Of a DNA stretch of 25,604 bases, positions 361 through 17,907 are shown piece after piece. The stretch's first letter is position 1. Each line of letters starts with the position of its first letter. This DNA is from a virus. The stretch covers positions 1 to 25,604 of the IMG/VR virus record IMGVR_UViG_3300035660_000076; one strand, given 5' to 3'. Under the pieces are notes generated by a model. That model did no database searches and was not told the DNA's origin. It saw nothing but the letters and a program-made list of their open reading frames with translations. Made by a program: the position numbers and the translations under genes.

Positions 361-990
361 GTGAACCTGTGGAAAGAGTACAAGGTCAGCCTACAGTTCA
401 CCAACGAGATCATGGGCGGTACGCCCAAGAGTCCAGAACTCATCTGGGACTGGCTTGAGGCGCGCAAGGCGCCAGACCCGGAGAAGAACGCCGAGGAGAT
501 AGAGGCGGGCATTGACGCCAGCGAGGACCGTTCCTGGTCCGGCTTCCAGCGTCAGGATGGCGTGGGCCTCTGCCTTCGGGGGTATCACGTCAAGGCCCAC
601 ATCAAGGACTGCGCGAATATCCTCCGGGCCATGCTGCCCAAGCGGGGCAAGGCTGACGGGACTGAGGTAGCGATGGCATGGCGTAGCATGGTCGCTGACC
701 GGTGCTACGTCGTGGAGGACTACATTCCCCTTGGTGCTAAGGAGCCGAGCGGCTTCTTTGAGCATCCCGTCCACGTGATGACCCGGCAGGGGCCGAGGAA
801 CGCCCTCAAGCGCACCGACTACGTCGACAAGCCCACGATCACCTTCACCCTGAAGTTACTCGCCGACAAGGTGGTGACGGAGGAGGTCCTGCGCCAACTG
901 TTCGAGTACGGTGGGACTCACGGCATGGGCAGCGACCGGGGCATGGGCTTCGGGCGGTACGAAGTGGCCGAACTCACAGAGATGGCATGA
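361..990 (+). CDS. conserved phage protein with RAMP-like glycine-rich loop, 209 aa
   Basis: GTG at 361 is preceded by AAAGGGGAG at about 345-353, so I take it over an upstream in-frame ATG at 274 that lacks a good SD. The N-terminal strand (residues 5-20) and the C-terminal segment ending in a Gly-rich stretch (residues about 184-200, GGTHGMGSDRGMGFGRYEV) recall the ferredoxin-like RAMP fold of Cas6 and Csm/Cmr proteins, where a G-x-G...G-x-G-R loop contacts RNA. From memory, stand-alone phage proteins with a P-x-G-P-R-x-x-L segment and such a C-terminal loop exist, and residues about 142-149 fit this. Function is unproven; RNA binding is inference. The TGA stop is the first part of the pentamer array that follows. 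Confidence 0.7.
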   Translation: MNLWKEYKVSLQFTNEIMGGTPKSPELIWDWLEARKAPDPEKNAEEIEAGIDASEDRSWSGFQRQDGVGLCLRGYHVKAHIKDCANILRAMLPKRGKADGTEVAMAWRSMVADRCYVVEDYIPLGAKEPSGFFEHPVHVMTRQGPRNALKRTDYVDKPTITFTLKLLADKVVTEEVLRQLFEYGGTHGMGSDRGMGFGRYEVAELTEMA

Positions 991-1492
991 CGGCGAGGAT
1001 TGTACTGGCGTGGCATGGGGTTTGGTGCCGTGTTTTGGAGTGGCGGCGAGAAGTGACCTGCGCTGAATGGGCCTGAAGTGTCGCCGAGGACTGCATCGCG
1101 CGGAGGTGGCATGACGGCGAGAGTTGCTTCGGTTGGGTATGACGGCGAGAGTTGTGGTTGGGCATGGAGTGATTTGTCGCGGAGTGACGGCGAGGGCTGA
1201 TCTGGTGGGCCGTGCTGTGGGCTTTACTGAAGTGGCGGCGAGGAATGGATTGCGTTGACGTCTACTGGCCTGCCGTGGACTGACGACGAGAAGTGGGATG
1301 CCGTGGACTGGGGTGAAGCGTCGGCGAGGATTGGGCTGAAGCGTCGTGGCGTCCTGTGGCTTGGTATGGCGGCGAGATGTGGCGAGATGTGATTTGGAAT
1401 GTCCTGGGGTGGGGTGCTTTGGCGGCGAGATGTGGTATGAGGTGGCGTGGAATGAAGCGACTTGGAATGACTACGAGTAGTCAGGTGCGATG
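980..1492 (+). repeat. 5-bp-phased NNNTG array with interspersed 13-mers
   Basis: This non-coding stretch between the preceding gene and terS can be read almost entirely as pentamers of form NNNTG (CANNN on the other strand), interrupted by a 13-mer of form (A/G/T)CGGCGAG followed by RNNTG. Full 13-mers lie at 990-1002, 1043-1055, 1081-1093, 1114-1126, 1142-1154, 1187-1199, 1235-1247, 1283-1295, 1321-1333, 1369-1381 and 1422-1434. A shortened copy is at 1382-1391 and a decayed copy at 1470-1482. Distances between successive 13-mers are 53, 38, 33(*28 after the fourth), 45, 48, 48, 38, 48 and 53; all but the 45 equal 13 plus a multiple of 5. By hand count about 64 pentamers lie between them, roughly three quarters ending in TG in register. 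The + strand is full of stop codons. A 5-nt unit is incompatible with a fixed codon repeat, so this is a nucleic-acid-level signal. Its function is unknown. Confidence 0.9.
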
Positions 1493-1953: not shown

Positions 1954-1973
1954 GGGGAGCAGGAGAAGATGAC

Positions 1974-3614
1974 CTGACGCACGCGGCAGTCCTCGATGCC
2001 CTCCCCCTGGCCGCTGCCAAGCTCAAGTTAGAACGCGAGCGCCGGCAGCCGGGCCCCACTGTCGCCGTCGATCCCTGTGATTGGATCGAATCCAACTTCT
2101 ACGTCTACCAGGGACACGAGCCGCGGCTGATACGACTCCTCCCTCACCAGAAGGCCATCGTCCGCTACGCCTTCAGTCGGCGCCCCGATGGCCACTTCCC
2201 ATTCAGCATCATCGTCTATAGCACGCCCAAGAAGTCGGGCAAGAGCACACTGGCCGCCGCTGTCGCCCGCTGGTTCGCTGAGACTCAGGTCCGCATGGGG
2301 TCTGTCTTCTGCGTCGGCAACGATGCTCGGCAGGCCCGAGAGCGGTCCTATGAGTTCATCCGCCAGAGCATAGCCGGCGCCCCCGCCTTCATCGGGGGCA
2401 AGGATATCCTACCGGGCCGGTGGGAGTGCCAGGTCAACACCCTACGCTGCCTATCGAGTGGGACTAAGGTCGAGGCGTTGGCGGTAGACGCTCGGGGCGA
2501 GGCTGGTGGGCAACCCTCGCTCTCGATATGGACGGAACTCTGGGGCTTTGAGACATTGGAGGCCAAGCGCTTCTGGGATGAACTCACGCCCGTGCCTACC
2601 CTGCCCGACAGCATCCGGCTGGTTGAGACCTATGCCGGGTATGACGGCGAGAGTGACCTCCTGCGTGGCCTCTATGATACGGGCCTTCAAGGGCGACAAC
2701 TCACGGCCGGCGATCTAGCCGCCGCCGTATGCCGTGACGTTGACGGGGAGCGGTACGGGGACTTTCTGGGTGCCTTCAACCCCGCTGGCGACCCAGAAGC
2801 CCTCGTGCCAATATGGGTGGACGAGAGTCGGGGGCAGTTCACCTACTGGGACGATGGCATGGAGGCCCGCCGTATGCCATGGCAGCAGGGGGAAGAGGGC
2901 GAACGGTACTACCGTGAGCAGGAAGCGCAACTGCCGCCCGCGGCCTACCGCCGGCTGCACAACAACGAGTGGGTCGGCGCCGAGAGTGCCTTCGTGCCCC
3001 TCGAGGTCTGGGATGCTCGAGTGGACCCGACACTGCCCGACTTCCGCCTGCTGCGGGAGGACGGGAAGGCTATGGAGCAGGCAGGCTGCGTTCTAGGCGT
3101 GGACGCTGCCAGCACCGGCGACTGCTTCGGCGTGGTGGCTGTCACCCGTCACCCTCAGAGGCCGAAAGAGCCGGCGATACGTGCGGCTGCTGTGTGGGAG
3201 CCGACGAAGGCCCATCCCCGCATTGACTATTCCGACGTTGAAGCTACCCTACGGACCCTGTGCAAGCGGTATAATGTGGTCGAACTGGCCTATGACCCGT
3301 ACCAGCTTGAGGACATGATGCAGCGATTGCGGCGTGATGGCGTCGCCAGATGTAGGCAGTTCAATCAGATGCAGGACAGATTGATCGCCGACCGCCAACT
3401 CTATGACCTCGTGATGAACGGCGGCCTGTCCTGGGCCCCCGACCTGAATCCTGCCGTGCGCCAGCACATCGCCAACGCCAACGCCAAACTCCAGAAGGAC
3501 GAGGCGAGCAAGATGCGGATCGTGAAGAAGGCTGCGAACAGACCGATAGACCTAGTGGTCTGCATGAGCATGGCGGTACACCGCTGCATGAAGCTGATCA
3601 TGGAGAACGCATGA
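1974..3614 (+). CDS. terL: terminase large subunit, ATPase-nuclease, non-canonical or damaged start
   Basis: The packaging motor ATPase and headful/cos nuclease. The frame is open from 1929. Coding-quality sequence begins about 1971, well before the first in-frame ATG at 2295. Walker A (STPKKSGKST) lies at 2220-2249, upstream of that ATG, so a start at 2295 would remove it. No ATG, GTG or TTG exists in frame before 2295; CTG at 1974, 8 nt after AGGAG (1961-1965), is used here, giving 546 residues. An out-of-frame ATG at 1969 reads only two codons; one base missing after it would give a normal start. The Walker B position reads SIWTELW (T187, E188) instead of the usual D-E. RNase H-type acidic residues are probably D377 (GVDAAS), D441 (AYDPYQ) and D526 (PIDLVV). 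The length fits the family. Confidence 0.9.
   Translation: MTHAAVLDALPLAAAKLKLERERRQPGPTVAVDPCDWIESNFYVYQGHEPRLIRLLPHQKAIVRYAFSRRPDGHFPFSIIVYSTPKKSGKSTLAAAVARWFAETQVRMGSVFCVGNDARQARERSYEFIRQSIAGAPAFIGGKDILPGRWECQVNTLRCLSSGTKVEALAVDARGEAGGQPSLSIWTELWGFETLEAKRFWDELTPVPTLPDSIRLVETYAGYDGESDLLRGLYDTGLQGRQLTAGDLAAAVCRDVDGERYGDFLGAFNPAGDPEALVPIWVDESRGQFTYWDDGMEARRMPWQQGEEGERYYREQEAQLPPAAYRRLHNNEWVGAESAFVPLEVWDARVDPTLPDFRLLREDGKAMEQAGCVLGVDAASTGDCFGVVAVTRHPQRPKEPAIRAAAVWEPTKAHPRIDYSDVEATLRTLCKRYNVVELAYDPYQLEDMMQRLRRDGVARCRQFNQMQDRLIADRQLYDLVMNGGLSWAPDLNPAVRQHIANANAKLQKDEASKMRIVKKAANRPIDLVVCMSMAVHRCMKLIMENA
2637..2654 (+). repeat. 18-bp exact match to the pentamer array, inside terL
   Basis: The 18 bases GGGTATGACGGCGAGAGT occur here, encoding part of a G-Y-D-G-E-S segment of the large terminase, and again at 1135-1152 inside the array, where they span the fifth 13-mer. 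It may be a shared protein-binding site or the source of the array unit, or chance helped by shared GC-rich composition. Only one unit is present here and no pentamer register surrounds it. Confidence 0.55.
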
Positions 3615-3934: not shown

Positions 3935-5444
3935 CGGCGACGGAACAAAAGACCTGGCGCAAGTCCTGAAGCGCAGCCCGGTAGAGGTGGCTCAGGAAAC
4001 GCAGCTCCCCGGCCTGGGGTGGCTCCTCTACGTCACGATGCCCAGCTCCGACGGCTTCCCGCAGTGGGGCACCGATACGAAGCGCCGCGACGGGATGCTG
4101 CGGGACTTCATCACAAAGGAGAGTTTCTTCGCTTCCGCCCTGGCATCGGTGCAGGCCCGCAACGCCGCTATGCGGTGGACAGTGACGGGCCCGCCACGAA
4201 CCTCCGAGGTCTACAAGACCATCCTGAACGATGCCAACTTCGGTGCTGGCTGGCAGGACCTCATGTCGGCTGTGAGTGAGGACCTCTATACCCAGGACAG
4301 TGGTGCCTTCGTGGCGCTGGTACACCAGACTGAGAGCGCGGCATCGCCTGTCATCGGCGTCCACCACCTGGACGCCGCCCGCTGTTACCCCACCGGCAAC
4401 CCAGACAACCCCGTCATCTACCTGGACCGCAAAGGCGTCTATCACAGGCTGCGCCCATTCGAGATATACCAACTCCTCGAACTCCCGGCCTCAGTCGAAC
4501 ACCCGTCGGTCGGGCCTCTGTATCGCCTGCAGCGGTGTGCCCTGACTCGCTTCCTCGAGACGGCCATCCGTATGAGGAACCAGGCCATCTACATGAAGGA
4601 GAAGACCGGCGGGCGATTCCAGCGTGCAGTCCATCTCGTCCAGGGTGTGCCGGCGCAGAAGATCGAGGACTCCATCAAGATCATGGAGACCCAGGCGGAT
4701 GCTGAGGGTCTCAGCCGCTTCACCAAGCAGATCATCATCGGTGGCGTGGACTCGGACACGCCCGTGGACGTCAAGACGATCGAGTTCGCCAGCATCCCTG
4801 ACGGCTTCAGCGAGGCCGACTGGATTCACAACTACTACGTCGCTCTGGCCTTGGCCTTCCTAACCGACGTGCAGGAATTCGCCCCTCTGCCCGGCGGTAA
4901 CCTGGGCACCAGCGCCCAGAGCGAGATGCTGCACATGAAGTCCCGGGGCAGGGGGCCGGCTCTCTTCCAGAACCTCATCTCCAACCTCATCAACTGGCAC
5001 ATCTTCCCTAAGAACGTAGAGTTTCAGTGGCAGGAGCGCGACATCCAGGCCGAACTGGAGCAGGCGCAGGCAGACAAGGCGAAGGCCGAGGGGCGCAGTC
5101 TCCTGGTGACAGCGGGCATCCTGACACCCGAGGCCGTGCGGCAGATGATGGTGGACGCCGGGGAGATCCCGCAGGAGATCCTCGAGATGATGGGTGGCCA
5201 GGATGTGACGGACGAACGCACTACCGACGCCGAGAGCAAGCCAGGACGGGAGGAGACGGCGCCGGCTGGTGAGGAGGCCGCACCCACGGGCGGCGAGGTC
5301 GTGCCACAGGAGACGAAGGCGAAGGGCGGGCCTGATGATGAACGTGTAGCCCTCGAAGCCGATGTCGCCGAGGCCATCGCCGTGCCTCTGGCGCGGATCG
5401 GGCGGAATGTGAGGGCGCGGCTGAAGCGGGAAGCGGAAGGCTAG
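3924..5444 (+). CDS. portal protein, 506 aa
   Basis: The dodecameric ring at the capsid vertex through which DNA is pumped and to which the tail is joined. Identification rests on length, position after terL and before MuF, and a portal-like sequence: an N-terminal region with FITKESFFASALASVQARNA, a central RMRNQAIYMKE helix, and a late segment rich in Gln/Glu helices (about residues 365-385). The last 90 residues are acidic and low in complexity (runs of Glu, Ala, Pro), ending in a basic helix. Start at ATG 3924, preceded by CGGGAGG at 3911-3917, rather than the earlier in-frame ATG at 3876, which sits in the previous gene. The stop TAG shares a CTAG with the stop of a convergent minus-strand gene. 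Confidence 0.88.
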   Translation: MANDGDGTKDLAQVLKRSPVEVAQETQLPGLGWLLYVTMPSSDGFPQWGTDTKRRDGMLRDFITKESFFASALASVQARNAAMRWTVTGPPRTSEVYKTILNDANFGAGWQDLMSAVSEDLYTQDSGAFVALVHQTESAASPVIGVHHLDAARCYPTGNPDNPVIYLDRKGVYHRLRPFEIYQLLELPASVEHPSVGPLYRLQRCALTRFLETAIRMRNQAIYMKEKTGGRFQRAVHLVQGVPAQKIEDSIKIMETQADAEGLSRFTKQIIIGGVDSDTPVDVKTIEFASIPDGFSEADWIHNYYVALALAFLTDVQEFAPLPGGNLGTSAQSEMLHMKSRGRGPALFQNLISNLINWHIFPKNVEFQWQERDIQAELEQAQADKAKAEGRSLLVTAGILTPEAVRQMMVDAGEIPQEILEMMGGQDVTDERTTDAESKPGREETAPAGEEAAPTGGEVVPQETKAKGGPDDERVALEADVAEAIAVPLARIGRNVRARLKREAEG

Positions 5445-7313: not shown

Positions 7314-8990
7314 ATGCCCTACACCGGCCCTGGAGATGACACCCTCCCGGACAATGTGAAGAAGTTGCCCGACAACAAGCGGGCACAGTGGGTCCACGTC
7401 TTCAATAGCACCCTGAAGAACTGCTTGTCCGAGAACACCGGCGGTGGTGCTGGCACCCAGGCCAAGTGTGAGAGTACCGCCTTTCGCTTTGCCAATGGCG
7501 TGGCGAAGAAGGAGTTGGAGGAGATGGAAGAGGGCGAGAAGGTGGGGCGGATGATCTCGGCGGCCAATGCAGGGGAGATCATGGCGGCGGTCAGCCAACT
7601 CCAAGCTGTTCTCAAGAAGGCCGGGATCACCCTGGCCGCCGAGGAACCGGGACAGGCCGAGGAGGTCAAGGCGGCACTTGACGCCTATGAGCGGGAGAAC
7701 GAAGAGATGACCCTATTCGGCAAGATCAAGGAACTCTTCTTCGGCCAGAAGGTCGTCACCAAGACCGAAGGCGGCGACTCCTTCCCCGCCGCAGACTATG
7801 CCTATGTTCCCGATGCCGAGAGTCCCTCGACCTGGAAACTGCGTCTCACTGAATCGCCGGGCAAGTTGACCGTCATACAGGTGGCTCGCGCCATCACAGC
7901 CTTGCAGCCTTCGGGCTTTCGCGGTCAGAAGGTAGACATCCCCAGCGGCGACAAGTCGGGCGTGATCAGCAAGATCAGCGGCGCCATCGGGCGCATCCCC
8001 GGTGCCAGCGATGACCAGAGGACAACCCTACGCGACAGACTGAATGCGGTGAAGCAGGCCAGTTCTGCCTTCACCGTCACCAAGGATAAGGCCGGCAACC
8101 TCCGCTGGCTCACCATCACCAGCAACCGTTACTACGACCGGGACGAGGAGGTCTTCCCGGAGGCCGTACACCAGGAAGCCGTCAAGGCCGCCAGTGAAAA
8201 GGGAGACTATCCCGAACTCTGGCTCTGGCACACGCCCGGCAGCCGTATCGGTAAGGGTGACTGGGCCGATTACGCTGATGGCTTCCGTTTCGATTCGGGC
8301 ACAATCGACCCCGGCTCTGAAGGGGTCGCGGTGAAGTTGGCCCACGCCGACCTGGGCGTGAGTCATGGCTTCACGTTTGTCAGGGAGGGCGATACCTATA
8401 CGCAGTACATGACCCATGAGGTCAGCCCGTTGCCGCGGCAATACGCTGCGAATCCCTGGACGGGTCTCGTGGTAGAAAAGGAGGAGAACAGGGACATGGG
8501 TTTCACAACTGAGAAGCGCGCCTTCCTCGTCGATGCCCTTGGCGAAGACAAGGTGGCACAGATCGAGGTCGGTGCAACAGCACTCCGCAAGGAGTTGGAG
8601 GATGCCGGAGCAGCCTTCAAGGACCTGCTCGATGAGGGCGAGGTGGGTACGGGTGCCCAGGCGGCCACAGTCGACCTCGCCCCACTCACGGGCCTCCTTG
8701 AGGAACTGAAGGGCGGCATCGCCAAGATGCAGGAGACTTTGACTGGCCTCGAGGGTCAGGTGACCGACCAGGACAAGGCCATCAAGGCTCTGCAGAAGAC
8801 TGATGATGAGAAGGTCGCCGCTGGCATCGCCCCGAAGGGTGCCCTGCGGCCTGACCAGTCGCCAGCCAACAAGGACGGCAACATCGTCAGCGAGGAGGAG
8901 GCCCGGAAGGAAGGCGCCGGGGGCCCACCGCCGTCGCCAGTCAGCGCCTTCGTCGCCCAAGCGGAGAGGACGCTGGGACTTCAAGCATAG
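7314..8990 (+). CDS. ChaB-domain prohead protease-scaffold fusion, 558 aa
   Basis: Matures the capsid: cleaves scaffold and capsid protein inside the prohead. Residues 1-66 resemble a ChaB domain (MPYTGPGDDTLPDNVKKLP..., ESTAFRFANGVAKKE). Residues about 155-250 contain a FPAADYAYVPDAESPSTWKL region common in phage head proteases. Residues about 262-390 look like an XkdF/prohead-protease fold, with H306 (LWLWHTPGS) and S350 (LGVSHGF) as candidate catalytic residues and E369 near MTHEVSPLP. Residues about 420-500 are helical/coiled coil and may be the scaffold, followed by a low-complexity tail. No clear SD precedes ATG 7314 because the terminator U-run is there. An internal ATG near 7707 could yield a shorter product. 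The family call is fairly secure, the catalytic residues less so. Confidence 0.8.
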   Translation: MPYTGPGDDTLPDNVKKLPDNKRAQWVHVFNSTLKNCLSENTGGGAGTQAKCESTAFRFANGVAKKELEEMEEGEKVGRMISAANAGEIMAAVSQLQAVLKKAGITLAAEEPGQAEEVKAALDAYERENEEMTLFGKIKELFFGQKVVTKTEGGDSFPAADYAYVPDAESPSTWKLRLTESPGKLTVIQVARAITALQPSGFRGQKVDIPSGDKSGVISKISGAIGRIPGASDDQRTTLRDRLNAVKQASSAFTVTKDKAGNLRWLTITSNRYYDRDEEVFPEAVHQEAVKAASEKGDYPELWLWHTPGSRIGKGDWADYADGFRFDSGTIDPGSEGVAVKLAHADLGVSHGFTFVREGDTYTQYMTHEVSPLPRQYAANPWTGLVVEKEENRDMGFTTEKRAFLVDALGEDKVAQIEVGATALRKELEDAGAAFKDLLDEGEVGTGAQAATVDLAPLTGLLEELKGGIAKMQETLTGLEGQVTDQDKAIKALQKTDDEKVAAGIAPKGALRPDQSPANKDGNIVSEEEARKEGAGGPPPSPVSAFVAQAERTLGLQA

Positions 8991-9008
8991 CGACCGCTTG
9001 CCGGTCGC
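8990..9008 (+). other. stem-loop between protease and capsid genes
   Basis: GCGACCG (8990-8996, including the last base of the protease stop codon) pairs perfectly with CGGTCGC (9002-9008) around a 5-nt loop. No T-run follows, so it is not a standard intrinsic terminator. It may stabilise the 5' end of capsid mRNA or be an RNA-processing site, which would help raise capsid over protease expression. Confidence 0.45.
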
Positions 9009-9038
9009 CCAGGAACGGGGAGCGGGAGTAAAAGATAG

Positions 9039-10487
9039 ATGCCTACACAGATCGAAAAGGCAGTGGCCGATCTACTGGCCCTCATCGGAAAGGGTGAGAA
9101 GCACACGGCCCCTGGCCTCTTGACGGGGACACAGTACGCTCACGGTCCTGGTGGGCTACTGTCCTATCCCGGCGTTGACCCTGACGTCTACACGTCGATG
9201 CTCGGCAACATAGGTATCGTGAACATGTTGCTGACCAAACCATCGGTCTTCGCCAACCCGGTCTTCACGACCATCACCGGCGTCCAGGACGACAGCGGCA
9301 GTGAACCTACCACGCCTTGTGCGGAGCCGCCCTCGGCGGGCCTCAAGAAAGCCTGCACCGTTAGGGCACCGTTTGGGCGGTATGCTCGGCAGACCCGCGA
9401 GATCGACATCACCCGCATCGGCATGTTCAACGACATGGCCGACCCGAACTATCTGAGGCTGGTCAACAACCCGATTCAGCCGGGCGGCCTGTTCAACACT
9501 GGTGCGGGGGACACGACGACACCCAGCGGTCTTCTCACCAACGAGATCGAGCAGAAGTTCTGGGAGTTGGCTGTCGGTCTGAACCGGCTCCTCAGCCCCC
9601 AGGTCTTCCGAGGCAACCCGGCCAACAACCTGGGCACGGGCTACGCCGAGTTGACAGGCTTCGACACCCTGATCAACACGGGGTATGAAGACCTCACGAC
9701 TGGGACGACCTGCCCGAGCATGGACTCCGACATCAAGAATTTCGCCTGCGCCGACGTTGCGACCCACGCAGACAGCCTGATCCGCGCCCTGTCCTACATG
9801 TACCGCTATGTGAAGGACCAGGCGTTCCGTCAGTCGATGCTCCCGGTCAACTGGGTACTTGCCATGCGGCCGGAACTGTTCTTCGAGATCAGCGCCGTCT
9901 GGCCGTGCGCCTATCTGACCTACCAGTGCGGAATCCTTGGTGACGACAACAATGCCCGTGCCGTCATCGTCAACGCTGCGGATCAGGTTGCGATGCGCGA
10001 CGACATGCGGGCCAACTCGTACCTGATCATCAACGGGGACAGGATTCCCGTGGTTCAGGACGATGGCATTGCCGAGATAGACGGCGGGAACAACGCAGGA
10101 GAGCCCCCTCCGGGCTGTTTCTGCTCCGACATCTACCTCATCCCGCTATCGGTCATGGGCGGGCGAGCGGTCACGTACCTGGAGCACATGGACTGGAATG
10201 CCGCCGGCGCCGCTAGGGATGCGCTGGCCAAGCAGGGTCTGTTCACGATTCAGGGGCCGTGGATCGTCATCCCGAGCCAGCTCCGCAACTGCATGTTGTG
10301 GGAGGCCATCATCGAGCCTCGCCTCGTCATGCGGACGCCCTGGCTCGCTGGACGGCTCCAGAACGTCGCCTACTGTCCGCTGCAGCACACCAGGCAGCCG
10401 TTCCCTGACGACTCCTACTGGAAGGATGGCGGGGTGACCTACCGAACCACTCTGCCGACTCACCACGACGTTTGGGATAGGCAATAG
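9039..10487 (+). CDS. major capsid protein, 482 aa
   Basis: Called from its place directly after the protease/scaffold gene, its length, and capsid-like features: an N-terminal helical arm, a T-R-E-I-D-I-T-R-I-G segment (residues about 118-127), a MLPVNWVLAMRPELFFEIS helix (about 266-285), an RDDMRANSYLIINGDRIPVV strand pair (about 323-342) of the kind found in HK97-fold major capsid proteins, and a C-terminal ITxxR-like segment (about 425-445). SD GGGAG at about 9023-9027. Ten cysteines are unusual for a capsid protein and could form inter-subunit disulfides or bind metal. Position-based confidence is high; fold details are inferred. Confidence 0.82.
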   Translation: MPTQIEKAVADLLALIGKGEKHTAPGLLTGTQYAHGPGGLLSYPGVDPDVYTSMLGNIGIVNMLLTKPSVFANPVFTTITGVQDDSGSEPTTPCAEPPSAGLKKACTVRAPFGRYARQTREIDITRIGMFNDMADPNYLRLVNNPIQPGGLFNTGAGDTTTPSGLLTNEIEQKFWELAVGLNRLLSPQVFRGNPANNLGTGYAELTGFDTLINTGYEDLTTGTTCPSMDSDIKNFACADVATHADSLIRALSYMYRYVKDQAFRQSMLPVNWVLAMRPELFFEISAVWPCAYLTYQCGILGDDNNARAVIVNAADQVAMRDDMRANSYLIINGDRIPVVQDDGIAEIDGGNNAGEPPPGCFCSDIYLIPLSVMGGRAVTYLEHMDWNAAGAARDALAKQGLFTIQGPWIVIPSQLRNCMLWEAIIEPRLVMRTPWLAGRLQNVAYCPLQHTRQPFPDDSYWKDGGVTYRTTLPTHHDVWDRQ

Positions 10488-10554: not shown

Positions 10555-11487
10555 ATGCTGAAGGGCAAGATCCTTATTACGGGAGGGTCGGGCTTTCTCG
10601 GACGGGGTCTCCTCCGTCGCATCCGGCGCGAGGGTTGGCAATGCGAGGTTACGGTCTACTCCCGTGACGGCAAGAAGCAATGGGAATTGCGCCGTCTCTA
10701 CCCCGAGGTGCACTGCGTTCTCGGCGATGTCCGCGATCTGAACCGCCTCACGGCTGTTGCCGCTGGCCATGACCTCATCATTCACGCTGCCGCTCTCAAG
10801 CACATCCCTGAAGCTGAGAGGAACGTCGATGAGTGCATAGCCGTAAACGTCGAGGGGAGCCGTAACGTCGCCCTTGCAGCCGTTCAGGTGGGCATCCCCC
10901 AAGTAATCGGACTCAGCACCGACAAGGCATGTTCGCCCATGAACACCTACGGGCTGACCAAGGCCCTCATGGAGCGCATCTTTGCCGAGGCCAACCGCTG
11001 GGGAGGCACGCAGTTTGCTACCGTGCGTTATGGGAACGTCGTCGGGTCGACGGGAAGTGTCATCCCTCTCTTCTACCAACAACTCGATGACTTCGGCGAA
11101 CTGCACGTTACCGACAAGAACATGACACGGTTCTGGATATCGGTCGAGGAAGCCATCGACCTGATCTCTTATGCCGTCAGCAAGCGGAAGGGCACTATCA
11201 TCTATCGCTGTGGGGCGATGAAGGTCATCGACCTGGCCGAACTCATAGCTAACGGCAAGCCGATCAAGGTAACTGGCATCCGCCCGGGCGAGCGACTGGA
11301 TGAACGGCTGCTAGATTACTCCGAATCCCAACACTGCGAACAAGAGGGCGACTACTACCTGCTCTATCCGCCAACGGGCAAGGGCAACGGCGTGCATGAA
11401 CCCTGGACTTATCTATCATCCGCGCCCGCCCATTGGATCAGTAAGAAAGAGATGGCGACCATGATTGAGGATGCGAGGGGAGTTTGA
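10555..11487 (+). CDS. UDP-GlcNAc 4,6-dehydratase-like SDR (PseB/CapD type), 310 aa
   Basis: A nucleotide-sugar dehydratase, by family probably turning UDP-N-acetylglucosamine into a 4-keto-6-deoxy sugar with NADP(H). Visible motifs: TGGSGFLG (residues 9-16) for the dinucleotide, HAAALKHIPEAE (about 77-88), STDKACSP (121-128) and Y132-x3-K136 catalytic pair, then VRYGNVVGSTGSVIP and MTRFWI as in PseB. SD AAGGGGAG lies before ATG 10555. First gene of the cassette; no aminotransferase follows, so the route diverges from pseudaminic acid. The alternative substrate dTDP-glucose is less likely given the PseB-like motifs. Confidence 0.85.
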   Translation: MLKGKILITGGSGFLGRGLLRRIRREGWQCEVTVYSRDGKKQWELRRLYPEVHCVLGDVRDLNRLTAVAAGHDLIIHAAALKHIPEAERNVDECIAVNVEGSRNVALAAVQVGIPQVIGLSTDKACSPMNTYGLTKALMERIFAEANRWGGTQFATVRYGNVVGSTGSVIPLFYQQLDDFGELHVTDKNMTRFWISVEEAIDLISYAVSKRKGTIIYRCGAMKVIDLAELIANGKPIKVTGIRPGERLDERLLDYSESQHCEQEGDYYLLYPPTGKGNGVHEPWTYLSSAPAHWISKKEMATMIEDARGV

Positions 11488-15271: not shown

Positions 15272-17907
15272 AGGCGTACATCTATCCCTCCTTCGGCGGC
15301 GAAGACAACGGCGACGGCGGCATCCGGCGCGTGGTGGAAGCGCAGGAACGCTACCTGCCGAGTATGGGCGTTGAGTTGGTAGATGACCCCGCCGAGGCTG
15401 ACATCATCATCTGCCACGCCATGACACCGCCGACCTACTGGACGAACTATCCCGAGAAGGTCTTCGTTGTTCACAACTATGGTCTCTACTGGGCAGAATA
15501 CGAGTGGCAGAGGTGGGCACTGAAGGCCAACGCCGATTGCCTAGAGTCTATCAGGCGGGCTGACGCGGTCACCACTCCCAGCGAATGGGTTGCTCAGAAC
15601 CTACGGCGCCACACGGCCCGAAAGGTAACGGTGCTCCCTCTCGGCGTGACCTTGGAGGACTGGGAACCGGGAGAGAATGGCGGATATGTCCTCTGGAATA
15701 AGACACGTCCTGATCCCGTCTGTGACCCTGCCCCCCTGAATGCACTCGCCGCAATCCTACCCGAGACCAACTTCGTCACCACCTTTGGTGACCCGGCGCC
15801 AAACGTCACGATTACAGGCCGCCTACCGTTTGTCCAGGCCAAGGACGTACTGAGGAACGCCGGAATCTATCTCTGTACCACGCGGGAGACCTTCGGTCTC
15901 GGAAGCCTCGAAGCCTTGGCTTGTGGCGTCCCCATCGTCGGCTATAACTGGAGTTCACAGGCTGAGTTCCTGACCCACGGCAAGGATGCCTGGCTGGTAG
16001 AACCCGGCGATATTGAGGGACTGGCGGAGGGCGTGGGTTGGGCGATAGCGAACAGGGCGCGGATAACTACGGCGGGAAGGGAGACCGCCAAGGCCTTCTC
16101 CTGGGAACGGTCAATGGCGGCGCATGTGGAACTTTACCGTAGTCTCCTTGAGAACTGCGCCGGCCCGAAGGTAAGCGTCGTCGTAACCGCCTATGGCGTG
16201 GAAGAGTTCCTTGAGGAATGCCTAGACTCGGTTCTGGCCCAGACTATGCCCGATTGGGAGTGCATCGTGGTCGATGACGCCTCCCCCGATGGCTGCGGCG
16301 CCTTGGCAGACGAATATGCCGCCAGCAACAGCCGCATCCGGGTCATCCACAACGCCGAGAACCAATACGTCAGTCAGGCTCGCAACATCGGGATGGCTGA
16401 GAGCAAGGGGAAGTACATCATCCCTCTCGACGGCGATGATGCCTTGAGACCTGACGCCCTTCAGGTCCTATCCGATGCCTTGGATAATGACCGTTCGATT
16501 CACATAGCCTACGGGAACTTGGAGATCCTGACCTCTGGCGGAAAACGGCTTCACTCCGGTTGGCCGATAGATTTCAACTACTCGTGGCAGGCGGGACAGA
16601 GAAATCTTCTGCCCTACTGCGCCATGTTCCGGCACCAAGTATGGGAAGAGACCTGCGGGTATCGTAGGCGCTGGCGCACGGGTGAGGACGCGGAGTTCTG
16701 GCTGAGAGCGGCGAGTTATGGCTACCGGCCGCAGATGGTTACCACAACTGATATCCTGACCCACCGGATGGGTCGACCTGGATCATTGAGCAACCTCTAT
16801 CCTGAGAGTGACTGGGCCAAGTGGCTCTCCTGTAGTCATGATATGGAGGCAGCGCCGGCGGGGGCAGTGACGGATCACCAGCTCCCCGTCCCCTCACTCG
16901 ATCCGCCGGCCGTCTCAATCATCATCCCTGTTGGACCCGGCCATGAGCGGCTGGTCCTGGACGCCATCGACAGCGTTGACGCCCAGACCTTCCGGCAGTG
17001 GGAATGCATCGTGGTCAACGACACGGGGGGGCCGTTGGGGACATCATTGCCATCATGGGTACGCCTCATTGAGGCTGACTGTGGTCACAGTGTCGCCCAC
17101 GCCCGCAACCTCGGCATCAAGGCCAGCCGCGCCCCCCTCTTCGTGCCCCTCGATGCCGATGACTACCTGCAGCCCGACTACCTAAGAACAGCGTTGTGGG
17201 CGCACCAGGAGAGCGGCGGGGACCTCATCTACACCGATTTTTGGGAAGACCCAGAAGTCGAGGGTAAGTTCCGTATCTTCCGTGAGTACGACTCCGACCC
17301 AATGGAGACATTCAAGGGTAGCCTGCCCGTGACCATGCTCACACCGAAGGTCGCCTGGGAGCAAGCCGGGGGTTATGACGAAACACTGCCAGCCTGGGAA
17401 GATTGGGACTTCCAGTTCGCCTGCCTGGCCCGGGGGTTCTGTTTCCGGCGCCTGGCGGGGCCCCTCTGGACGTACCGCAAGCATACCGGCTGGCGGCGAG
17501 AACAGAATGCCACGCGGTTTGAGGAGGGCAAGCAGGGCATCCTCGCCAAGTGGCACCAATACTGGGAAGGGAGCAAGGAACTCATGGCCTGTAGTTCCTG
17601 TGGCAAGCGAAAGACCCTCACGCCAAACCTACCGAGGACCCGCAACCTTCCGGTGGCGGAAGGTGCCGTGCTGGTTGAGTACACGGGACCAAGGCAGGCT
17701 AGCATGACCTTCCGTGGTGCATCGGGCACACTCTACCGCTTCGGCGCTGGCGACCCAGCTAAGTATGTCCTCGAGGAGGACGTGCCTATGTTCGAGGCCA
17801 GAGTGGACTTCAAGCGGGCGAACGGAAGTGGCCCGCCACTGGCGCCCGACCGGCCCATCTTGGTTACGGAGATGGCACCGAAGCGGGAGGAGTTGGTGAG
17901 TGCTTGA
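15268..17907 (+). CDS. three-domain glycosyltransferase fused to a phage structural domain, 879 aa
   Basis: Starts at GTG 15268 in a GTGA overlap. Residues 1-297 are a GT4/GT-B transferase with the E-x7-E motif (E207, E215 in RETFGLGSLEALACG). Residues about 300-525 are a GT2 domain with VVDDASPD (about 334-341) and LDGDDAL (387-393). Residues about 548-770 are a second GT2 domain with VVNDTGG and LDADDYL (628-634) and an ED pair at 711-712. Residues 773-879 have a CxxC (C775, C778) and a VEYTGPRQASMTF...LYRFG segment like a small head/connector-associated phage protein. So one polypeptide could add two or three sugars and carry a structural tail. The fused part also has its own start (see next entry). 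Confidence 0.85.
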   Translation: MKAYIYPSFGGEDNGDGGIRRVVEAQERYLPSMGVELVDDPAEADIIICHAMTPPTYWTNYPEKVFVVHNYGLYWAEYEWQRWALKANADCLESIRRADAVTTPSEWVAQNLRRHTARKVTVLPLGVTLEDWEPGENGGYVLWNKTRPDPVCDPAPLNALAAILPETNFVTTFGDPAPNVTITGRLPFVQAKDVLRNAGIYLCTTRETFGLGSLEALACGVPIVGYNWSSQAEFLTHGKDAWLVEPGDIEGLAEGVGWAIANRARITTAGRETAKAFSWERSMAAHVELYRSLLENCAGPKVSVVVTAYGVEEFLEECLDSVLAQTMPDWECIVVDDASPDGCGALADEYAASNSRIRVIHNAENQYVSQARNIGMAESKGKYIIPLDGDDALRPDALQVLSDALDNDRSIHIAYGNLEILTSGGKRLHSGWPIDFNYSWQAGQRNLLPYCAMFRHQVWEETCGYRRRWRTGEDAEFWLRAASYGYRPQMVTTTDILTHRMGRPGSLSNLYPESDWAKWLSCSHDMEAAPAGAVTDHQLPVPSLDPPAVSIIIPVGPGHERLVLDAIDSVDAQTFRQWECIVVNDTGGPLGTSLPSWVRLIEADCGHSVAHARNLGIKASRAPLFVPLDADDYLQPDYLRTALWAHQESGGDLIYTDFWEDPEVEGKFRIFREYDSDPMETFKGSLPVTMLTPKVAWEQAGGYDETLPAWEDWDFQFACLARGFCFRRLAGPLWTYRKHTGWRREQNATRFEEGKQGILAKWHQYWEGSKELMACSSCGKRKTLTPNLPRTRNLPVAEGAVLVEYTGPRQASMTFRGASGTLYRFGAGDPAKYVLEEDVPMFEARVDFKRANGSGPPLAPDRPILVTEMAPKREELVSA
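17584..17907 (+). CDS. nested in-frame small structural-type protein, 107 aa, internal start
   Basis: Within the long glycosyltransferase, ATG 17584 is preceded by AAGGA (17575-17579) at 4-nt spacing. Translation from it in the same frame gives a 107-residue protein, MACSSCGKRK at its N-terminus followed by a VLVEYTGPRQASMTFRG...LYRFG segment. Separate small phage proteins of this sort lie next to capsid genes, where a Y-x-F-G-like segment is followed by an acidic D-V/D-A position. Here the independent start would restore such a protein despite the fusion. Whether it is used is not shown by sequence alone. Confidence 0.5.
   Translation: MACSSCGKRKTLTPNLPRTRNLPVAEGAVLVEYTGPRQASMTFRGASGTLYRFGAGDPAKYVLEEDVPMFEARVDFKRANGSGPPLAPDRPILVTEMAPKREELVSA

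Follow-up and report, generated by a model that had tools for sequence, protein, structure and literature searches.

The segment 361-1477 of the viral contig analysed here is very probably a VIPR-type system, in which a small RAMP protein, Vipr, is combined with about 11 short, discontinuous guide RNAs arranged as an array. The window, meaning the whole stretch of DNA that was analysed, comprises positions 1 to 25,604 of the IMG/VR record IMGVR_UViG_3300035660_000076 (25,604 nucleotides). We favour reading the array as one of VIPR-type guides because the adjacent gene encodes a RAMP and carries such an array in 48 of 56 related viral loci. VIPR (Viral Interference Programmable Repeat) is described for phage SUSP1 and, as type II, for P. 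fulva, and comprises a phage RAMP together with vrRNAs of alternating GGY and NN, which read their targets two bases at a time and skip one, mostly at the codon wobble position (PMC13142463). The targets lie in competing phages, and binding, silencing and phage interference are reported for these systems; seven types are named, with GGY/NN 'or a related consensus', as well as staggered and ribozyme-interspersed arrays (PMC13142463). We confirmed the GGYNN arrays of SUSP1 in its public genome and found nothing else of this form in the literature beyond PMC13142463. The preliminary description of the window knew of no described element of this form, a statement that has to be withdrawn, as the vrRNAs are built on the same principle, though their constant letters are different.

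Between 980 and 1492, TG pairs at a distance of five nucleotides occur 40 times compared to 11.3±2.9 times in 1000 dinucleotide-preserving shuffles of this segment (z 9.9, with 0 of the 1000 as high), which bears out the 5-nt register proposed earlier. An excess of TG is also seen at lags 10, 15, 20, 28, 33 and 38, and nowhere else in the window does a 500-nt segment give a comparable lag-5 signal. Plus-strand ORFs of at least 60 amino acids are absent from the array region, in line with its being regarded as non-coding, and an assembly artefact could be ruled out by the recurrence of the same form in dozens of independent viral contigs. The array is punctuated by octamers of the pattern [ATGC]CG[GCA]CGAG starting at 990, 1043, 1081, 1114, 1142, 1187, 1235, 1283, 1321, 1369, 1422 and 1470, and the distances from start to start (53, 38, 33, 28, 45, 48, 48, 38, 48, 53 and 48) equal 8+5n in 10 of 11 intervals. 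The sole exception is the register slip at about 1150-1186, which had already been noticed near 1155-1166. While the regular punctuation was confirmed, 12 octamers were counted in place of the 11 copies reported before, the last one (ACTACGAG) being degenerate; of the NNNTG pentamer the constant G stands, with position 4 being T or sometimes C and position 3 leaning to G. The first octamer overlaps the TGA stop of the upstream RAMP gene, the array thus beginning on a stop codon. No Rfam family (hammerhead or others) matched in 900-1600, a search for sigma-70 promoters gave none, and terminator-like sites numbered one, about the same as in shuffled sequences. A structured 3' tail was not seen on the guides, which have the octamer repeats in its place. 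All features are compiled in Table 1. Downstream of the array, the listed terL ORF begins only at 2295, and the sequence just after terS (window 1970-2295) resembles a terminase N-terminus.

Table 1: Features of the vipr-like locus and its neighbour in the window.
Feature	Start	End	Strand	Description
vipr-like gene	361	990	+	209-aa RAMP (Cas7/Csm3 fold); GTG start, TGA stop
Guide array	985	1477	+	11 guides built of NNnYG pentamers, bordered by 12 octamer repeats
Octamer repeat 1, ACGGCGAG	990	997	+	
Guide 1	998	1042	+	9 pentamers; NN = GA TA GC GC GG TG CC TT GA
Guide 2	1051	1080	+	6 pentamers
Guide 3	1089	1113	+	5 pentamers, irregular
Guide 4	1122	1141	+	4 pentamers
Guide 5	1150	1186	+	holds the +2 register slip
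Guide 6	1195	1234	+	8 pentamers; NN = GG AT GT CC CT GG TA AA
Guide 7	1243	1282	+	8 pentamers
Guide 8	1291	1320	+	6 pentamers
Guide 9	1329	1368	+	8 pentamers
Guide 10	1377	1421	+	9 pentamers
Guide 11	1430	1469	+	8 pentamers
Terminal degenerate octamer ACTACGAG	1470	1477	+	
terS	1537	1953	+	neighbour, outside the system

The gene in front of the array had been called RAMP-like, and its predicted fold agrees with this. AlphaFold gave a model with pLDDT 90 and pTM 0.81 from an alignment of 47 sequences, and the best match among solved structures is the type VII CRISPR Cas7 (Foldseek E 9e-9; Z 12.8 and rmsd 5.2 over 168 residues in the superposition), with Csm3 also among the best matches (Z about 12.8). 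HMM libraries returned weak RAMP matches alone (Csm4, Cas6, Cmr6). In a profile comparison with the Vipr family of phage SUSP1 we obtained P 2.5e-4 over 136 collinear columns and an HHalign probability of 43%, so on the basis of its sequence profile the protein is likely a remote homologue of SUSP1 Vipr. A tblastn search with Vipr in the phage collection yielded five weak matches. No vap homologue was found in the window by tblastn, and no cas gene was recognised among the scanned window ORFs. In about 18 relatives a small conserved gene with the motif KHEQIxDALERxxITGKxAEQMNQxLKG... adjoins vipr, mostly between vipr and the array (L081:10698-10925, L103:759-992 and about 16 others), and is a candidate for the vap accessory gene.

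A pattern scan of viral contigs brought up several unrelated ones with an array of this build, mostly directly after a RAMP-like gene, and the RAMP-like proteins encoded beside these arrays align with one another. The 56 related loci were collected in a profile scan with the RAMP protein, an array being called where a strong TG or GT lag-5 signal was present within about 1.4 kb of the gene. A strict-pattern scan of genome contigs gave 24 matches, about the chance expectation, none of them a real array. From 41 distinct arrays the pentamer consensus N-N-(G-leaning N)-Y-G was derived, with 0.01, 0.00, 0.16, 1.21 and 1.79 bits of information at positions 1-5; position 3 is G in 47%, position 4 is T in 85% and C in 11%, and position 5 is G in 97%. 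The leaning of the third base to G, taken over all arrays, is stronger after C. The octamer consensus over the relatives is roughly [A>N][C/A]G-N-CGAG, and the repeat spacing equals 8+5n in 303 of 389 cases. We describe the layout as repeat-guide-repeat because many arrays start and finish with an octamer plus one pentamer. L053 has DNA similarity to the window over 362-1066 alone (84%), a segment that takes in vipr and the first part of the array, with no similar DNA between the rest of the window and the fetched part of the L053 contig. The two proteins are 92% identical and the guides completely different. From these sequence comparisons the system seems to behave as a cassette that moves between phages while its guides turn over.

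Several loci deviate from the arrangement in the window. Arrays are located upstream and not downstream of vipr in L062 (6298-6831), L068 (102-620) and L080 (1197-1965), and one phage contig (L097) has four separate array-like stretches (5006-5256, 8459-8905, 10659-11410 and 17224-17503). L020 (IMGVR_UViG_3300043220_000029) shows a clear pentamer array with octamers on the minus strand at about 8985-9313, and no vipr gene was found at E<=0.001 in the whole 43-kb record; perhaps this is an orphan array using the Vipr of another element. At L107 (10648-11100) and L139 (2560-2900), where the Vipr relatives come from other sources, human-gut phages among them, the constant dinucleotide at lag 5 is apparently GC and not TG. 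Downstream of a Vipr relative in Microcystis phage Mae-JY09 (L138:2700-3228) there is a period-5 CC on the plus strand, equal to GG on the opposite one, and this array may run in the opposite direction.

The reading code of the array family was determined by comparing 418 guides with 3.34 million bases of phage DNA on both strands, leaving out the loci that had been fetched by guide patterns (L109-L132), and with ten sets of shuffled guides as controls. Read-2 and read-3 codes with skips of 0-3 were tried, using E<0.01 as significance threshold. With read-2-skip-1, 6 of 181 sufficiently long guides were significant (shuffled mean 0.2, maximum 1), the best E values being 1.2e-7 and 3.1e-6 compared to 8e-4 for the best shuffled control. 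Read-2 codes with skips 0, 2 and 3 showed no excess over shuffled guides, and read-3 codes were at or near control. The evidence for a read-2-skip-1 code in this array family is strong. The strongest single match (L174) stems from an irregular array, and its target is on the same contig, with mismatches at 7 of 40 positions. In L081, L086, L089 and L091, the part of vipr that encodes the glycine-rich loop agrees with an L092 guide at 20 of 20 read bases, and an L072 guide matches 16 of 16, in antisense, at the DPPY motif of DNA methylase genes in two unrelated viruses, which differ from each other at the skipped bases only. Two further matches of L072 guides fall in neighbouring stretches of an HK97 capsid gene, the capsid gene of L072's own contig having two mismatches to each of these two guides, and tyrosine integrases are matched at their catalytic motif by guides of L057 and L092, in each case with a single mismatch. 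Where vipr, methylase or serine recombinase genes are the targets, the wobble position is the one that is skipped.

The serine recombinases are candidate targets of the window's own guides. Five of its guides (1, 6, 7, 9 and 10) were scanned for targets in viral contigs. Guide 6 can be decoded as G[I/M]VPLGY[K/N], from which we expected a serine recombinase before the search, though this was not written down, unlike the prediction for guide 9. From its 12 viral matches 9 are in phase in an open frame, and 6 of these 9 are serine recombinases hit at their conserved GG[IM]VPLGY motif (GIVPLGY), with the wobble base skipped. For guide 10, a search with 8 of its pairs gave four viral matches, each of them in frame and skipping the wobble base. 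One is in a gpA-type terminase (IDSGG motif), and another, in L121, extends to all nine pairs in a protein of unassigned function. As guide 1 has no exact target among the viral contigs, guide 7 has eight exact viral matches with no gene family in common, and the P-loop target predicted for guide 9 was not found (its single match being out of phase), the sequence matches of the window's own guides are suggestive.

Other readings of the array have to be weighed against a VIPR-type guide array. One of them would keep the guides and change the code, with all three NNN bases read contiguously and YG bulged out, which would be unlike published VIPR. It could account for the correlation of the third base with N2 and with the next pentamer's N1 (p 1e-4), as in contiguous DNA, while N2 and the next N1 do not correlate (p 0.89), and for the mild excess of read-3-skip-0 (6 of 361 guides compared to a mean of 1.7). 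However, in matches defined by NN the third base agrees with the target at about chance level (roughly 21 of 68), and it does not avoid stop triplets (TAG seen 60 times, 57 expected). Because of these two results the third base is most likely not read, and we regard contiguous reading as quite improbable; the idea that the third base is a copied wobble base was rejected, as stop triplets are not avoided. It is also unlikely, if slightly less so, that the guides regulate genes of the phage itself or of its host and not those of rivals. For some guides the contig that carries them does contain a matching gene, at 2-7 mismatches (the L072 capsid and L174), but in the phage DNA searched the exact matches lie in other viruses, the mismatched own copies are what is expected for homologues of rival genes, and guide 6 has no counterpart in the window even when up to 3 mismatches are allowed.

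Two further readings, both raised in the preliminary description, connect the array to the terminase genes. The position immediately upstream of terS suggested a packaging (pac/cos) site, bound by a TerS ring at one TG per 5 bp, and a search for such arrays upstream of terS in relatives had been proposed. None of the nine contigs related through TerS has an array (tblastn of TerS in the phage collection gave no match), and the array stays with the RAMP gene where the surrounding genes are unrelated, for example before a portal-like gene in L019 and at several places in L097. Together with variable bases that match genes of other phages, this leaves a packaging site hardly credible. Control of the terminase operon at the RNA level, TRAP-like or by an attenuator and with NNN as meaningless filler, would be in keeping with the RNA-binding fold encoded next door and the regular register, but is very improbable as well. 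The information sits in the variable bases, whose first two per pentamer decode to targets above control under one skip rule only; the guides of the window and L053 are wholly different despite the 92% identity of the proteins, and Rfam gave no match. TRAP-binding RNA does share a roughly 5-nt register, yet in TRAP the constant triplets carry the specificity, whereas here it lies in the variable pair, and the protein fold is different.

For the VIPR-type system we propose that in each NNnYG unit the first two bases would pair with target DNA, the weakly constrained third would go unread and one protein subunit would presumably hold the constant YG or flip it out, so that five guide bases span three target bases (two read, one skipped). 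The octamer xxGxCGAG marks the borders of the guides, like the repeat of a CRISPR array, and the RNA may be processed there. The RAMP would probably oligomerise on the guide RNA and bind target DNA, and the complex would probably silence genes of competing phages. The earlier idea that an oligomeric protein recognises each 5-nt unit, the octamers serving as punctuation, was judged right, the oligomerisation being probable. For 361-1477, we infer RNA expression, processing, oligomerisation, DNA binding, silencing and a benefit in phage competition.

Measured against the description of VIPR, the window and its relatives share the small phage-encoded RAMP of about 20 kDa, the neighbouring array of non-coding pentamers in which two bases are hypervariable, the read-2-skip-1 code that passes over the wobble base (of the skips tried, 1 nt alone is clearly above control) and the apparent lack of CRISPR adaptation genes, as well as the targeting of competing phages and among their genes also of other vipr genes, as shown for the relatives of the window (PMC13142463). 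In contrast, the constant part is nYG and not GGY, which sets it apart from the published GGY/NN form, though it may fall under the 'related consensus' that the seven types allow; the guides have 4-10 pentamers and not 9-16 as in published vrRNAs; an 8-nt xxGxCGAG repeat stands between the guides where type II has a structured 3' tail; and the vap accessory gene typical of VIPR was not found in the window (PMC13142463). Class 1 CRISPR systems with Cas7/Csm3 effectors resemble the locus in the RAMP fold, which is closest to type VII Cas7 and Csm3, in the repeat-spacer-repeat layout with an 8-nt, handle-sized repeat and in the turnover of spacers. They differ in that the guide here is discontinuous with a 5-nt period, the repeat is not palindromic, and there is one effector gene with no cas1/cas2 or other cas genes seen. 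Membership in CRISPR-Cas was rejected on account of the discontinuous pentamer guides, the 8-nt repeat and the absence of a cas gene among the scanned window ORFs.

Whether these loci form a distinct VIPR type is a more tentative matter, and we consider it quite possible without favouring it. Such a type would combine read-2-skip-1 guides in repeat-spacer-repeat arrays, an 8-nt handle-sized repeat and a mobile cassette of vipr plus array with guide turnover, it would be intermediate between VIPR and CRISPR, and its guides would favour conserved protein motifs. If this is true, skipping the wobble base at motifs of integrases, recombinases, methylases, capsids and rival vipr genes would hamper escape.

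In summary, a gapped RNA-guided code that so far rested on one 2026 preprint has been independently confirmed from sequence alone, and its known range now takes in dozens of uncultivated phages whose arrays follow another repeat consensus and are punctuated in a CRISPR-like manner. The arrays can be decoded and thus record which rival phages, and which of their genes, are being attacked; they also provide a test case for the turnover of guide arrays and the possible origin of CRISPR arrays.
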